Source: a virus. Taken from it: a stretch of 64,000 nucleotides of DNA. Positions 9,962-44,904 of the stretch are shown piece by piece. The notes below the pieces were generated by a model. It was not told where the DNA came from and did not search any database. It worked only from the letters and a program-made list of their open reading frames with translations. The DNA is taken from positions 1-64,000 of IMG/VR virus record IMGVR_UViG_3300022696_000117; one strand, given 5' to 3'. The stretch's first letter is position 1. The number at the start of each line of letters is the position of its first letter. Made by a program: the position numbers and the translations under genes.

Positions 9962-10639
9962 TTAGAACAGGTTCTCTATCCAAAGCTTGGAGGGGTCGTC
10001 CTGCCTCCTGACGTATTCCCCGTTTTTGCCTATCTCATAAACCCATGCGTTGGTTATTTCAGGTTCTGTCCCGGCGGTTTCCGCTATGTCGTGGGCCTTT
10101 TCAATCGCAGCCTCATTCCAGGCCTCAGCCTGGAACTCGCCGATTGCTACGAAAGACCCACCGACGTCGTTGATTTGCCCGCAAACCGCGAATTTCCGTA
10201 GGGGCACCCACTTGACCATCACGACTTCCAAGTCGTCAAGCGTTGCGACCGGGGTGTCGCCTTCGGCCTTGGAGGCCCTTACGCCGCCTTTTGGCCGAAT
10301 AGCCAGACCATTTTGGACGCCGTCCCAAAACGCCCTCTCCTGTTCAGGGAGGGATGGACAGGCTGCCTTGAGAACCGCAGTTGTTACGGGATGACCGCAC
10401 AAGTTCCGGTTGACCCTTTCCAGCATTGAGCGGACGTTTTCTTCTCCATGTATCGGCGTGATCTCCAGCCGACCCTCACTGAATGTTGGGGCTACTACGG
10501 TTGAGAGGAGGGTCAAGGCCCTTCCCTCAGTAACCTGGAAAACGGTGTCACTGTCGCAACTGTCACAGGTAGGCCAGTTGCGGCCGAAAAACCGTCCGGT
10601 TGAAATCGTCCCGCAGGAATCACATTCGAATTTTTCCAT
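9962..10639 (-). CDS. Zinc-ribbon protein with a DUF1874 (AcrIII-1 ring-nuclease-like) domain
   Basis: The 225-residue protein has three parts. Residues 1-35 form a zinc ribbon (C5, C8, then C25, C28). Residues about 40-145 follow the DUF1874 / STIV-B116 pattern: an opening strand LTLLSTVVAPTF-EG, a helix, then CGHPVTTAVLK corresponding to the family's IGH-STA motif whose His is catalytic in AcrIII-1, then R-x-EGDT-VATLDDLEVV like the family's GD-ALV strand. About 70 residues follow with no match. AcrIII-1 proteins cleave cyclic tetra-adenylate and so switch off type III CRISPR defence. The ribbon and tail are additions to the usual 100-residue protein. I am moderately sure of the family and not sure of the activity. 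Confidence 0.55.
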   Translation of the reverse strand: MEKFECDSCGTISTGRFFGRNWPTCDSCDSDTVFQVTEGRALTLLSTVVAPTFSEGRLEITPIHGEENVRSMLERVNRNLCGHPVTTAVLKAACPSLPEQERAFWDGVQNGLAIRPKGGVRASKAEGDTPVATLDDLEVVMVKWVPLRKFAVCGQINDVGGSFVAIGEFQAEAWNEAAIEKAHDIAETAGTEPEITNAWVYEIGKNGEYVRRQDDPSKLWIENLF

Positions 10640-10708
10640 TTTTTTGCTCCTTGGCTAAGGGTATTGGTTTCTACACATCTATTACGGCATTCGACCGGGA
10701 AAATTCAA

Positions 10709-10861
10709 TTAAAAGATGAAATCTTCATCCGGCGTGTTTTCGACGTAAACGATTATTTCATCCGGGGAATACCAGCACCAGTCAAGGCGCAGGTGGTCCG
10801 GATTCTTGTATTTGGGGCTATGGAACATGGCTGAAATCGTGTCTAGAAGTGTTTTGACCAT
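10709..10861 (-). CDS. 50-aa hypothetical protein
   Basis: I took the ATG at 10861 because AAAGGAG precedes it; the longer frame to 10951 begins inside the structured RNA region. The product begins MVKTLLDTISAMFHSP and ends in acidic residues. Function unknown. It is the first gene downstream of the giant RNA on the same strand. Confidence 0.6.
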   Translation of the reverse strand: MVKTLLDTISAMFHSPKYKNPDHLRLDWCWYSPDEIIVYVENTPDEDFIF

Positions 10862-10889
10862 GATAAAACTCCTTTCAGCCCCGGTCGAA

Positions 10890-12112
10890 TACCCTAATAG
10901 GTGTGCAGACGGGCGTATTTCAGCCGACGCTCTACCAAGCGAAGACAACACGAGCTAAACCCGATGGCCCAAGGACAGAAATCGTCCTTTGAGGTCGTGA
11001 GCCGGTCTTTCCCTTGCGGTACTCGCACCGGACGGACAAAGCCGCACCTCCGAGGGCCGGGGGCGTTCACTCGCTATACACCCTTGCACACCAAATACAG
11101 AGCGCAGAATCGGGATATCACTTCAGGAATCCCGCAGCTCCTTTTGCGAATACTCAGGCGTTCGCGACTACGCTTGAACTTTCACCCATTGGGCTACTCG
11201 CCATCAGCGTGTCCCGACGGCCCGGACCAATGTCCATTGGAGGCCACAGCGTTTCCTGCCTATACCCGGCTTCACTGCACAAAGAGACAGCGACGCACAC
11301 GTTTAGACGCTCAGGAGCTTTGTTTTCCCAGTCGGATCAATCCTCGATCCTTTGCTCTGGTTCCTCTTCTGTGACCCCGAAGAGGGCTTGATACGCCGTC
11401 ACCGGCATACCGGGGCACACGTCAAGCCCGACGGGCAGGGGCTTATAACATCCCAAGCAGGGAAGCGATTATGTCGCCGCTCACCTTTATTTCAGTGTAC
11501 AGATCCATAGGGGTGAGGTCCCCGACCGGTGATATCGTCACCAATCGCTCAGTGAGACCAACGAAAACAGATTGTTGACCCATCGGATAACGACCCGAGA
11601 TCTCCTGAGAAATCTTCCGCCGCCGGATGCCTTTTTACGACCCATGCCGAACCAGAAATCACATGGGCAAGATCAGGAGCATATTAGCATATGCTTATTT
11701 ACGTCCACCCAGACATTGGACGGCTTTTCTCTCCACAAGCAGGGGATGATACATATGGGGGTTTCGATACCATGAGAAGCGTATCAGTGAGGGTGAATCC
11801 GGTAATCCGTACCGGCCGCGGCATCGTTTTACTGTAGGGGTGGTACTCAGCATTCGCACAGTTGGCCTACGATGAAAGGCCCAGAGAATCCGCTCAGGGG
11901 GGTGGATACCAGGTTCGACCTTACTGATGGCAGGTAAGCCGGGATCAGTGAGACCGGGGTATCCGGACCGACGAGACCATGTATTTGCGAGCGCAGACCA
12001 AACATGGTCAATTCTGCGATATTGTTTATCGCCGGTGTCGAGGTTTTCACCTCATTAAGACCTTCAATCTAAATTGAAGGCCTTAATGAAGCCCCGTCAT
12101 GGAGACGGGGGA
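10890..12112 (-). ncRNA. Candidate giant structured non-coding RNA, about 1.2 kb
   Basis: No frame here starts from a ribosome site or resembles a protein, but perfect stems occur along the whole length: 10971-10976 with 10984-10989; 11002-11006 with 11027-11031; 11111-11116 with 11129-11134; 11227-11231 with 11236-11240 inside 11219-11222 with 11242-11245; 11363-11369 with 11379-11385; 11384-11391 with 11422-11429; 11464-11470 with 11543-11549; 11528-11532 with 11538-11542; 11641-11646 with 11662-11667; 11678-11684 with 11689-11695; 11702-11707 with 11717-11722; 11799-11804 with 11810-11815; 11904-11910 with 11958-11964; 11975-11982 with 12002-12009; 12053-12068 with 12073-12088; 12092-12098 with 12104-12110. 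Size, phage context and many nested helices recall GOLLD and ROOL RNAs; I cannot match it to either. Strand is set by a G-U pair in the 16-bp helix that would be an A-C mismatch on the plus strand, and by the flanking minus-strand genes. Other helices are neutral or slightly favour plus. Confidence 0.65.
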
Positions 12113-12116
12113 AAGA

Positions 12117-12560
12117 TCATTTCATAGCAGAGAGCATTTGTTCGAATTCTCTCTTGCTTTTAATCAGCTCCCGTTTCAAGTCTTGATTCGAGGTGAAGCG
12201 AATTTCTTTTTTAATTTCTCTCACACGCTGAATCAGACCCATTTTAAACTCCTCTCTCTCTTTGTCCTGCCTCGCTTTCGCCTTCCTGTACTCCGGGAGA
12301 CCCGGATCATAAACATTGGCAAAAGCATATAGAGCCAGGGGAGAAGCCAAAATCGAAACAACAGCGACCGGCAAAGATACAGCACCGGTGACACCGCCGA
12401 CAACACCACCTACAAACAATCCCGTCATGGTCATGTTCGATACGTGGAATTGCCAGGAACCAAAGTCGTTCTGTGCTTGTTCCCACAAGGTCCGAGACTC
12501 AGCGGGACCAGGGAGAACCAGAACGCAGACCATAGCCAATAGGATGATAATTCTTTTCAT
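12117..12560 (-). CDS. Exported or membrane-anchored protein of unknown function
   Basis: The 147-residue protein begins with a clear signal sequence (MKRIIILLAMVCVLVLPGPAES), has a second hydrophobic stretch near residues 48-80 (LFVGGVVGGVTGAVSLPVAV, then SILASPLALYAFA) and ends in a charged coiled-coil-like tail (RKAKARQDKEREEFK...). Probably an envelope protein with a cytoplasmic or periplasmic coiled coil. Its place between the RNA and the regulatory module, away from the other operons, suggests a gene expressed on its own from lysogens, for example for superinfection exclusion; that is inference. Codon use is AT-richer than its left neighbours. Confidence 0.65.
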   Translation of the reverse strand: MKRIIILLAMVCVLVLPGPAESRTLWEQAQNDFGSWQFHVSNMTMTGLFVGGVVGGVTGAVSLPVAVVSILASPLALYAFANVYDPGLPEYRKAKARQDKEREEFKMGLIQRVREIKKEIRFTSNQDLKRELIKSKREFEQMLSAMK

Positions 12561-12668: not shown

Positions 12669-13091
12669 CTTACTATTATCCTGAACTCCGGAAAGCGTAA
12701 CAAAAAAAATGAAAAAATTTGAAACACCCGAAATTACAGGGAAAACAGAAAGAAAGAACATTTCCATCAAACCAGGGATAAGAGAAATAGCTGAACACAT
12801 GGCCAGTGAAGACCGGCGATCGTTCAGCAATTTGCTCGAATTCCTGATAATGAAGGAGGCGGAGAAACGCGGCATCATCAGGGATACCTGAACCTCCGTC
12901 TTGCTTACTGTTATCCTGATGGGCGGAAAGTGTAACATCTTTTTTTGTGCTGTAATATCAAGATGTTACAACAATAGGATACTTTTCTCAATTGTGTATC
13001 CTATGCACCAAAATTTGTTACCGGAAATACCGTTTTTTGGTGCTTCATCCCTTCTTATTTACTATTATCCTGAACCTCGGAAAGCGTAACA
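12669..13091 (+). repeat. Three dispersed 34-bp direct repeats
   Basis: Near-identical 34-bp units occupy 12669-12702, 12904-12937 and 13058-13091. All start (C/T)TTACTRTTATCCTGA and end CGGAAAGYGTAACA. The first ends seven bases before the ribbon-helix-helix gene, the second begins 12 bases after it, and the third lies 190 bp before the next gene. The TATTAT could be a -10 element and the GGAAAG a weak ribosome site. They may be operators for the small regulator they flank or relics of a duplication. Confidence 0.75.
12709..12891 (+). CDS. Ribbon-helix-helix (CopG/Arc-like) regulator
   Basis: This 60-residue protein has a strand KNISIKPG followed by two helices (IREIAEHMASEDRR, SFSNLLEFLIMKEAEKRG), the ribbon-helix-helix fold of small dimeric repressors such as CopG and Arc. 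There is no strong ribosome site: GGAAAG of the upstream 34-bp repeat lies 13 bases before the ATG. Being bracketed by two 34-bp repeats suggests it controls itself and perhaps the following large gene. Plasmid copy-number and addiction regulators often look like this. Confidence 0.7.
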   Translation: MKKFETPEITGKTERKNISIKPGIREIAEHMASEDRRSFSNLLEFLIMKEAEKRGIIRDT

Positions 13092-14515: not shown

Positions 14516-14544
14516 GCCATAGCGCCACATAGGCCGAGTTAAAA

Positions 14545-14577
14545 GCCCCATGCCGTTTTCCGGTATGGGGTTTTTTT
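14545..14577 (+). terminator. Intrinsic terminator
   Basis: CCCCATGCCG (14546-14555) pairs with CGGTATGGGG (14561-14570), one G-U, loop TTTTC, followed by seven T. It ends the 410-aa gene's transcript. Confidence 0.9.
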
Positions 14578-14602
14578 GTGTCTGGTGTTCCACTGGTCGG
14601 AT

Positions 14603-14618
14603 TGTTCCACGTGGAACA
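14603..14618. promoter_or_regulatory. parS-like ParB binding site
   Basis: TGTTCCACGTGGAACA is a perfect palindrome that fits the parS consensus TGTTNCACGTGNAACA; the symmetry extends to 20 bp (14601-14620). Two decayed relatives flank it (GTTCCACTGG at 14587 and TTCCATGTGGGAA at 14627). The window encodes a ParB at 8906-9859. Confidence 0.75.
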
Positions 14619-14649
14619 ATTAAGGATTCCATGTGGGAAAATGTGGAAT

Positions 14650-14719
14650 GGGTCATTTTGACCCGAACGCTGACTATGGGTCATTTTGACCCATTATATA
14701 AAGCGGGTCATTTTGACCC
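14650..14719. repeat. Three copies of a 15-bp palindrome (iteron-like)
   Basis: GGGTCATTTTGACCC occurs without change at 14650-14664, 14678-14692 and 14705-14719, spaced 28 and 27 bp apart. The spacing is about 2.6 helical turns, so consecutive sites face different sides of the helix. A dimeric protein must bind; candidates are the 410-aa protein, the ribbon-helix-helix protein or ParB. Confidence 0.9.
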
Positions 14720-15137
14720 ATTGGTGCAATGTTTTTATTGCATTTACGGGAATTTGATGATTGACTCTTACCGCAAGATACGCTCACAACGAAAATCGTA
14801 CGGAACGCCGAACAATCGCCAGCCGTCGAAAGCTTTTCCGAACGATCATTTTTCAGCCCGCAAAACAACAAAATTTCCAGCGGTTCACGTTGCTTTATAG
14901 GGTATTAAGTAATTTTAAGGCCCCTCGATCTATCTCAAAGGGGACGGGTCTCTATATGCGCCTACGCAGTACTCACCACAAAATTTTCCCCCCAAATTCC
15001 AACATTTTACAAATTTTTTCCAAAATTCCCTTTACTTTTCCCGGATTCCAGCAATATCCTTGAATCGAGCGACAAACCATACAGAATTCGCGCAAAAAAC
15101 AAAAGAAAAGCATAAAACATCACGAGGAGCGAGAAAA
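14720..15137. other. Intergenic region without a credible gene
   Basis: About 420 bp, AT-rich, between the 15-bp palindromes and the next gene. Short frames lack ribosome sites. It contains T-rich runs (near 14990-15045) and, with the palindromes and parS, could be part of a plasmid-type origin. No clear promoter was found. Confidence 0.5.
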
Positions 15138-38630: not shown

Positions 38631-38937
38631 TTTGCAATATCTTTGCAATGCCCAGAGATTGTGTTTCCATTGCAAATCCATTGCAAAATTTTTCCTATTG
38701 CAAAAACCTCTCAGATGGCTTACCGTAAATGACTGAATTGAGGGGTTATTTTTGGTACGCCCGGCAGGATTCGAACCTGCGGCCTACGGATTAGAAGTCC
38801 GTTCCAGCCCACAGCTGAAAACCCCGCAATTTCAAGTAATTCCCTAAAAATCAGACCCTTGTAAAGCTTTCCCGGATGGGTAAAATGGACTAAAACGGGC
38901 CATTTCGGGCTCATTTTTCATTGCAAAACATTGCAAT
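38631..38937. other. attP: attP region with integrase arm sites
   Basis: Arm-type repeats ATTGCAAA or TTTGCAAT lie on the left at 38631-38638, 38642-38649, 38669-38676, 38680-38687 and 38697-38704, and on the right at 38920-38927 and 38930-38937. Between them lies the 3' half of a tRNA gene. Multiple arms left and two right is the lambda-like plan. An intact attP means this sequence is not an integrated prophage junction. Confidence 0.75.
38753..38802 (-). other. 3' half of tRNA-Arg(UCU), attP core
   Basis: On the minus strand there is a 5-bp anticodon stem (ACGGA with TCCGT) and loop CTTCTAA with anticodon TCT, a perfect T arm (GCAGG-TTCGAAT-CCTGC), the acceptor 3' strand CGGGCGT, A and CCA. 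The 5' half (acceptor strand and D arm) is missing, so it is not a working tRNA gene but the identity block shared with the host. Confidence 0.85.
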
Positions 38938-42535: not shown

Positions 42536-43585
42536 TTATTCTTCCGGTTCTTCCGTCTGGATGTCTATTAGGTCGACCGAGCCCAGTATCGGCGCCATGA
42601 GTTGGGCCTGCCTTGGAGCGTTTGGGTCAGGTGGGTAGGCTCGGTACGGCGTTGCGAGAGCAATCAGGTCTACGAGCATCTGTGACATGTCTGGGGAGTA
42701 GTCCACTTTATATGGCGGTTCGTCGTTGTCGTCGTCAGGGTCCATATTAACCGCCTGCGGTTCTCCGAAGATGCGGCTCCCTGCGATAATATTGCTGGTT
42801 CCGCCTATAGCAGGGTTGGTCATTGACCCGTCCATTTGCTGAACCGCATATACTCCAGACATGGGAGAATACCCCCATGAGAAAGCAAGATATGCGTAGT
42901 CCATAGGGGCGGGGTTCATTGGAACATAGTCAGCTTGAGACTTGCCTTCTATGTTGGTTGTCGAACGGTATGTGCCTGGGTGGTCTGGAAAATCTGTGTG
43001 CCCGAGAAGTATGCGCAGGCCCCTGTCGTAGGCGTTGTTTTGCGGAAATCGCGGATCGTATGAATATTGAATGTTGTTATACTCAAAACGGAACAGCGTG
43101 TCCCCTGACATTGTGAATTCGTATGTGAATATTCTTTCCGGGAAAGTTTTTGTTCTCCATTTTGTTATCGGCACGTCGTCCTTCAGGTTCCACATTTGGG
43201 CGTAGGCGGTTTCGACCCAATTCCCTCCTGGGTCTGTGTATATCGCCAAGGCTCCAAAGATGGCGACCCTAATTCGGCACGGCTTTACGTCTTTCACGAA
43301 ACCGACCACCTCAAAAGTTTTTACGCCAACTGACGCCCTGTGTCTGTACGCCAGGACCAAGACCCTGTCTCCGGCGTTGAAGGCAGACCAGCCGTTATCA
43401 ACCACCTGCTGGCCCTCGCAGTGGTAGAATATGGGAACGTCAGCCTCTTCTCCATGATCATCTATATTTACGACTGCGGTTTTCGTGTCGCCATCGACTG
43501 AAACGATTGTGCCCTGTTTCATTGCGGCGTCGAAAACGTCGGTTACATTGTTTCCGAAGTCGATATATTCGTGCTGTTCAGCCAT
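42536..43585 (-). CDS. Tail tip protein
   Basis: Start at 43585 (MAEQHEYIDFGNN), overlapping the previous stop; the longer frame starts upstream in that gene. The 349-residue protein contains a barrel-like stretch QGTIVSVDGDTKTAVVNIDDHGEEADVPIFYHCEG and FNAGDRVLVLAYR. That recalls the OB-fold tip proteins (gpV-like) that carry cargo at the tail end. Family not certain. Confidence 0.6.
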   Translation of the reverse strand: MAEQHEYIDFGNNVTDVFDAAMKQGTIVSVDGDTKTAVVNIDDHGEEADVPIFYHCEGQQVVDNGWSAFNAGDRVLVLAYRHRASVGVKTFEVVGFVKDVKPCRIRVAIFGALAIYTDPGGNWVETAYAQMWNLKDDVPITKWRTKTFPERIFTYEFTMSGDTLFRFEYNNIQYSYDPRFPQNNAYDRGLRILLGHTDFPDHPGTYRSTTNIEGKSQADYVPMNPAPMDYAYLAFSWGYSPMSGVYAVQQMDGSMTNPAIGGTSNIIAGSRIFGEPQAVNMDPDDDNDEPPYKVDYSPDMSQMLVDLIALATPYRAYPPDPNAPRQAQLMAPILGSVDLIDIQTEEPEE

Positions 43586-44904
43586 CAAGCGCCTTCCCAA
43601 CCGATTTTCATCGGGATGATTACATAATTCGATTTTGCCGGGTCCAGGGCAGAGCCTTCAGGAGCGTCCGCGGTAAAGCCGAAGGTGTTGGCCCAATGGA
43701 CCGTTCCGTCTTTGGCTCGAATGACCGAAAAGCCGGTCTCCTTAAACTCAGGCCGGATCATATTTGCAAAATGCCTTGGAGACGCAAGCCACCCACCGAA
43801 AACACTTTCAGCGTCGTTGAAACCCTTGGCCAGATTTTCGCCAGTCCCCATTTCCTGTGCGTTCATTCCGTATCCTGTCGCTGTTATCCGCTCCTGCGAG
43901 CTTGATCCGTCAGAGCCTGTGTGCCCTATAAAGCTATTGGATACCATATCCTTGCAGTGGTTCTGAGCGGCAGACGCAAGGTTGGTATTGATGCTTAGTC
44001 TTCCCACGCCATGTTCTTCACGCAGGGCGTTGATCAAATTCAGCAGAATCCTCGTTTGACTCCTAAGCGCCGAGTCGTCTTCACCTGAATATTCAACCTG
44101 CCCGAGGTCGCAATTCAGATCGCATGAATCTTGAGCGCTCATGAGAAAAACCCAATCTCCGACCTCGTAGTCAACATGGTCCGATGCCCTGCATGCGTAG
44201 AGGACGCCTTCTACCTCGACGATATAGTAGATGGTCGTTGAGTCGTAATCCCCCCTGACCTCTTTGACAACTCCACCCGTGATTGAGCACGTCCGATAGT
44301 ATTTTTTCCCGCAGACGACCTCTTTTTCCCTTTTACCATCGGTAAAAAAAAGGTGGGCCCTGGCTTCCATTCCCGGGACCATTATGCCGTTGTCCAGAAC
44401 GTCGTATTCCTGTGGCGGTATTTTATAGGATTTGCAGTCCGTCCTCTCGTTTTTGTCTACCTCTGTCCTCGGCACTCCGTTTCGGCTGCCCGACTTGTAG
44501 GTTTCCGCAAACAGCTCTCCACTGGTGTCATCAAGCCCCTTGTGCCCTGTCACAACCGTTCTGAACCATTGGCAATGATACGGCCGGTAGACATCGATAT
44601 GGGGGTACGGCTCCAGCGACGTGACGGCCCCGCTTATCGGGTGGAATGTCTCAGGGTCTCTGGCGATGCTGATGCACTCTTCCAGGACGTCGCAATTGAA
44701 AGGCTCGTAATCGGCCGAGTTCGGTAGCCTGACGATCACCCTGTTCCTTTCGATTTCCATTTCCGGATCTCGAATCGCCAAGGTGATCAGTTTTTTTTCT
44801 TCGCTGACGCTTGCACCCTTTCCGCAATTCTGACCGGATGGTTCTGCATAGCAGGAGCCCGGGACAGTTCCGCACAGGGGGATGTATATCTTCCTGCTTC
44901 CCAT
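43585..44904 (-). CDS. Tail protein with C-terminal CAP (SCP) domain
   Basis: The 439-residue protein begins MGSRKIYIPLCGTVPG. The N-terminal 280 residues, with many cysteines, look structural. Residues about 285-425 are a CAP/SCP domain: LLNLINALREEHGVGRLSINTNLASAAQNHCKDMVSN, FIGHTGSDG, ERITATGYG, GENLAKGF and VHWANTFGF. CAP domains are common in secreted bacterial and eukaryotic proteins and bind lipids or cell walls; in a phage tail the domain could bind the host surface. The upstream gene's stop overlaps its start (TAATG). Confidence 0.75.
   Translation of the reverse strand: MGSRKIYIPLCGTVPGSCYAEPSGQNCGKGASVSEEKKLITLAIRDPEMEIERNRVIVRLPNSADYEPFNCDVLEECISIARDPETFHPISGAVTSLEPYPHIDVYRPYHCQWFRTVVTGHKGLDDTSGELFAETYKSGSRNGVPRTEVDKNERTDCKSYKIPPQEYDVLDNGIMVPGMEARAHLFFTDGKREKEVVCGKKYYRTCSITGGVVKEVRGDYDSTTIYYIVEVEGVLYACRASDHVDYEVGDWVFLMSAQDSCDLNCDLGQVEYSGEDDSALRSQTRILLNLINALREEHGVGRLSINTNLASAAQNHCKDMVSNSFIGHTGSDGSSSQERITATGYGMNAQEMGTGENLAKGFNDAESVFGGWLASPRHFANMIRPEFKETGFSVIRAKDGTVHWANTFGFTADAPEGSALDPAKSNYVIIPMKIGWEGA

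Follow-up and report, generated by a model that had tools for sequence, protein, structure and literature searches.

A long non-coding stretch with predicted structures at both ends in a minus-strand gene series of a phage

The window, that is, the whole stretch of DNA analysed here, covers positions 1 to 64,000 of a virus record 82,155 bp long (IMGVR_UViG_3300022696_000117). Judged from its gene content, the record is a temperate tailed phage, since we identified genes for an integrase, a terminase, tape-measure and tail proteins, a primase, helicases, a ParB-like protein and a sliding clamp. A codon model trained on the same phage puts the coding share of the record at about 91%. The phage is isolated: by primase, its nearest kin reach 38-40% identity (two short contigs) and 32% (a 61-kb record), and a tblastn search with the terminase against 50,697 phage records returned zero matches. 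All credible genes from 12,560 down to 5,847 lie on the minus strand, in the order 147-aa gene, the gap that is the subject of this analysis, 50-aa gene, 225-aa gene, ParB-like gene and sliding clamp. The features in and around the gap are as follows.

9962-10639, minus strand: 225-aa gene from the ORF list, the next gene downstream, with an N-terminal CxxC...CxxC motif and no family
10670-10699, minus strand: arm C of an inverted repeat, partner of arm B, outside the coordinates of the earlier note
10709-10861, minus strand: 50-aa ORF with the ribosome-binding site AAAGGAG, enclosed by arms B and C; no family
10880-10909, minus strand: arm B of the 30-nt inverted repeat, 28/30 positions pairable on the minus strand including 2 G-U pairs
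10910-12045, minus strand (taken from the surrounding operon): non-coding core of 1.14 kb with no period-3 signal, no protein family and shuffle-level pairing
10929-10957, minus strand: D-arm-like string TAGCTC...GGTAGAGC, with a loop of 15-19 nt, too long for a D arm
12050-12110, minus strand: two adjacent hairpins, 7 bp at 12,110-12,092 and 19 bp at 12,091-12,050
12117-12560, minus strand: 147-aa gene from the ORF list, with an N-terminal hydrophobic, signal-like stretch, upstream of the gap and in the same direction
12670-12702, minus strand: promoter/operator-like repeat 1, TTGTTA, 17 nt, GATAAT (sigma-70-like), the repeat nearest the 147-aa gene
12905-12937, minus strand: promoter/operator-like repeat 2, a near-identical copy
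13059-13091, minus strand: promoter/operator-like repeat 3, a near-identical copy

Between the 147-aa and 50-aa genes, 1,255 bp (10,862-12,116) hold no credible gene. This is the longest gap in the record (1,477 bp if the 50-aa gene is left unscored), the runner-up being 544 bp. The period-3 signal within it is 0.6-1.2 versus a median of 4.0 elsewhere and is absent in every 300-nt window, and the codon model calls no gene there. Open frames of 118-157 aa are present, for example a 157-aa plus-strand frame at 10,901-11,374, and ten open frames of the gap searched against Pfam and PHROG at E up to 1 gave no match. The earlier note had described the region as lacking a credible gene in otherwise gene-dense DNA, and both halves of this description are borne out. 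The interval 10,862-12,116 is a real and unusually long (1.25 kb) non-coding stretch.

Structure exceeding chance is found only at the two ends of this stretch. At the upstream end, the twin hairpins immediately follow the 147-aa gene's stop codon. The segment 12,046-12,116 folds at -40 kcal/mol with G-U pairs on the minus strand, the local folding z is -6.0 at 11,901-12,100, and no U-tract follows the hairpins. The 16-bp helix with a G-U pair reported earlier is indeed there, as a 16-17-bp hairpin at 12,052-12,089 with one G-U on the minus strand. At the downstream end, arms B and C are 87% complementary (blastn E 5.7e-4), and 10,670-10,909 folds as a 240-nt stem-loop (z -7.2 on the minus strand, -4.7 on the plus strand) that includes the ribosome site and the entire 50-aa frame and lies largely outside the coordinates given in the earlier note. 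In the longest modelled transcript arm B pairs with arm C (about 0.86-0.87) rather than with the interior at 11,085-11,097 (0.01), and its bases pair with the interior when arm C is absent from the modelled sequence. With both arms in the transcript, this preference displaces the fold that the 3' end adopts when the gap is modelled by itself. As the 50-aa gene sits within an imperfect inverted repeat (10670-10909), an invertible or mobile cassette is a further possibility for this segment.

The interior is no more structured than shuffled sequence or coding DNA. Within 10,890-12,112 we counted 84 perfect stems (minimum 5 bp, loop up to 100); dinucleotide shuffles give 82.2±10.2. For imperfect stems, the scores of the top ten total 239 (minus strand) and 238 (plus strand), versus 247±9 and 238±9, respectively, in shuffles, and the minus strand has 110 confident pairs (p>0.9), within the 18-208 spanned by shuffles. 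Folding z for the entire stretch is -4.6 (minus) and -5.2 (plus), so that folding favours neither strand of the gap; without the end hairpins it is -2.3 to -4.3, varying with the shuffles and the exact ends. Coding windows of equal length from the same phage have a mean folding z of -2.2 (sd 1.6, minimum -5.7). Consequently, the evidence originally offered for a giant RNA fails, as neither the many stems spread over the whole length nor the ornate nested and long-range pairing rises above the shuffle level. Two controls were folded in the same way, with z -0.02 for the ROOL RNA carried by plasmid pMP118 and z -2.8 for a segment of 16S rRNA 1,156 nt long. With a genuine ROOL at about 0 and 16S at -2.8, single-sequence energetics therefore cannot decide for or against a giant RNA.

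We also compared the DNA with known RNA families. With the whole of Rfam 15 at gathering score, only a tRNA piece at 38.8 kb matches in the window, and with E up to 5 nothing falls below E 0.6 in the gap region. In particular, OLE, HEARO, group I/II introns and rRNA have no Rfam match in the gap at gathering score or at E up to 5, and neither GOLLD (RF02032, the conserved 3' domain) nor ROOL (RF03087) gives a covariance-model match at E up to 10, the same ROOL search detecting the pMP118 ROOL at 130 bits. Thus the gap matches none of the four families (GOLLD, ROOL, OLE and HEARO) whose covariance models had been named as the check on the giant-RNA proposal. A string suggestive of 23S rRNA, GUACCGCAAGGGAAAG, was rejected, as a search for rRNA families at E up to 5 came up empty. 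The proposed resemblance to a tRNA D arm holds as far as the string itself, which is present on the minus strand, but not for a tRNA: none is found in this region by ARAGORN or by Rfam RF00005 at E up to 10. ARAGORN finds zero tRNA genes in the 82-kb record. The tRNA match of the window (38756-38818) lies beside the integrase gene and reads as the 3' part of a tRNA-Arg, which ARAGORN rejects; it is probably attP.

The three 33-nt boxes upstream share the minus-strand consensus TGTTACRCTTTCCGnnnnTCAGGATAAYAGTAA and point into the operon that bears the gap, with no further copies elsewhere in the 82,155-bp record. No promoter or terminator above chance frames the gap itself. The boxes surround a small gene (12,709-12,891) whose product weakly resembles a ribbon-helix-helix protein, and boxes and gene together perhaps form a small repressor regulon. 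Further upstream, a 544-bp gap (14,516-15,059) contains three copies of the palindrome GGGTCATTTTGACCC at 14650-14722 with 27-28-nt spacing, which are likely operators.

Relatives of the gap were sought in several collections. There was no gap homologue by blastn against phages and plasmids, and no match in scans of viral contigs with the ParB, the clamp, a translated gap frame or the inverted-repeat consensus, nor in scans of genome contigs with the terminase and integrase; whole-record blastn against 47 viral records gave noise only. Scans of viral contigs with SSB found 59 loci without shared synteny, those with the ATPase found seven close relatives sharing the ATPase gene only, and those with a primase alignment identified three kin (L087, L088 and L167). 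Among kin with long records the most distant is the 61-kb G042, and the 60 kb of it that were covered contain nothing comparable to the gap. Since single-sequence pattern scans reach close relatives only, the lack of a gap homologue is weak evidence of absence. Two genes of the window deserve mention in their own right. The ATPase (1423-2445) is 62-69% identical to relatives in phages whose fetched loci have nothing further in common with this one, and by this pattern it looks to have been exchanged on its own. In the midst of the structural genes, 43585-44904 encodes a protein of 439 aa whose C-terminal part is a CAP domain (PF00188).

Intercistronic untranslated regions and structured leaders are a known feature of phage operons. 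The gap resembles them in its same-strand flanking genes, the hairpins after a stop codon, the stem around a ribosome site and, more generally, the above-chance structure at its borders; it differs in being far longer than usual and in having no known homologue. The resemblance to the large phage RNAs is of another kind. A tRNA may sit in the linker of GOLLD RNAs. Many GOLLD members exceed 800 nt, their expression increases on phage lysis and they form a closed 14-mer cage (PMC12286853). ROOL forms a homo-oligomeric nanocage at an abundance comparable to that of 16S rRNA, and both families often occur near tRNA islands (PMC12286853). Like GOLLD, the gap is long, non-coding and in a phage setting. 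However, it lacks an RF02032 match, its pairing is at chance level, at about 1.14-1.25 kb it is longer than the 'many members exceeding 800 nt' reported for GOLLD (PMC12286853), and it is not accompanied by a tRNA island, the sole tRNA piece being the attP-type 3' part 27 kb away. With ROOL it shares the non-coding character and the phage or prophage setting, but it is twice as long and has no RF03087 match.

Taken together, the reading we prefer, with a rough probability of 0.4, is that the gap is a long region between cistrons of a minus-strand operon, left untranslated and bearing cis-acting RNA structures at both ends. The transcript would most likely begin at the promoter/operator-like boxes at ~12.7-13.1 kb, the box at 12,670-12,702 being its likely start, and we infer that it crosses the gap. 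The twin hairpins might stabilise or process the 3' end of the 147-aa messenger, or they might thin read-through. The stem of arms B and C, by enclosing the ribosome site and the 50-aa frame, may limit translation; alternatively, it might be a site of RNase III cleavage. The 1.1 kb between the end structures would remain untranslated, and we assign no function to it, the single sequence of the interior bearing no functional sign. Counted against this explanation are the oddity of 1.1 kb of idle untranslated sequence in a record that is ~91% coding, the hairpins being without a U-tract, and the possibility that the inverted repeat acts as DNA, either as an operator or as a recombination site.

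The main alternatives to an untranslated operon stretch are a relic and an orphan giant RNA. The former, a one-time gene or insertion now decayed past recognition and awaiting deletion, is rather doubtful but would account for an unstructured interior with no period-3 signal, no family and no repeats. The tetranucleotide signature of the stretch points the same way, as it ranks with the most atypical in the window (just 7/111 segments correlate less), although low signature correlation is common to other non-coding or AT-rich parts. Phages, however, usually delete such DNA, and decay to zero coding trace would be surprising next to intact neighbours. Were the stretch still coding, through the 157-aa plus-strand frame or in a frameshifted assembly, the open frames of 118-157 aa would be its signature; yet a 157-codon open frame is by our own estimate not rare by chance at the local base composition, the codon model rejects the frames, and with neither a period-3 signal in any 300-nt window nor a family match we regard such an unrecognised protein as highly improbable. 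An element acting at the DNA level, such as a replication origin, a parS region of the nearby ParB-like gene or a packaging or recombination site, is brought to mind by the close ParB-like and sliding-clamp genes and by the 30-nt inverted repeat flanking the 50-aa gene. It seems improbable, since inside the gap there are no iterons or excess repeats, no DnaA box, no parS-like site, no AT-rich stretch (at most 63% AT in 60 nt) and no clear turning point of GC skew.

A giant structured non-coding RNA of an undescribed class on the minus strand, perhaps an RNA-only assembly like GOLLD and ROOL, was the proposal of the earlier note, and we consider it unlikely. The retention of a long non-coding stretch in gene-dense DNA speaks for it, the true giant RNAs used as controls are no more extreme than the gap, and two sub-folds on the 3' side reach moderate stability (z -3.7 and -3.5), though these were chosen post hoc. 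Against it, pairing is at the shuffle level and the plus strand scores equal to the minus strand, there is no Rfam family and no tRNA gene nearby, the gap has neither an above-chance promoter of its own nor a terminator at its end, and G042 carries nothing comparable. In its more specific form, in which the gap would encode a giant phage RNA (about 1.1-1.25 kb) from an orphan class that is unrelated to GOLLD and ROOL and has its homologues outside the collections searched, the proposal is a shade less likely still.

A general caution follows for claims of this kind. By stem and folding measures a real ROOL resembles shuffled sequence, and stem counts and folding z can neither make nor break a giant-RNA claim. 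If the giant RNA were nonetheless real, it would be a third class beside the two known phage RNAs that form cages.
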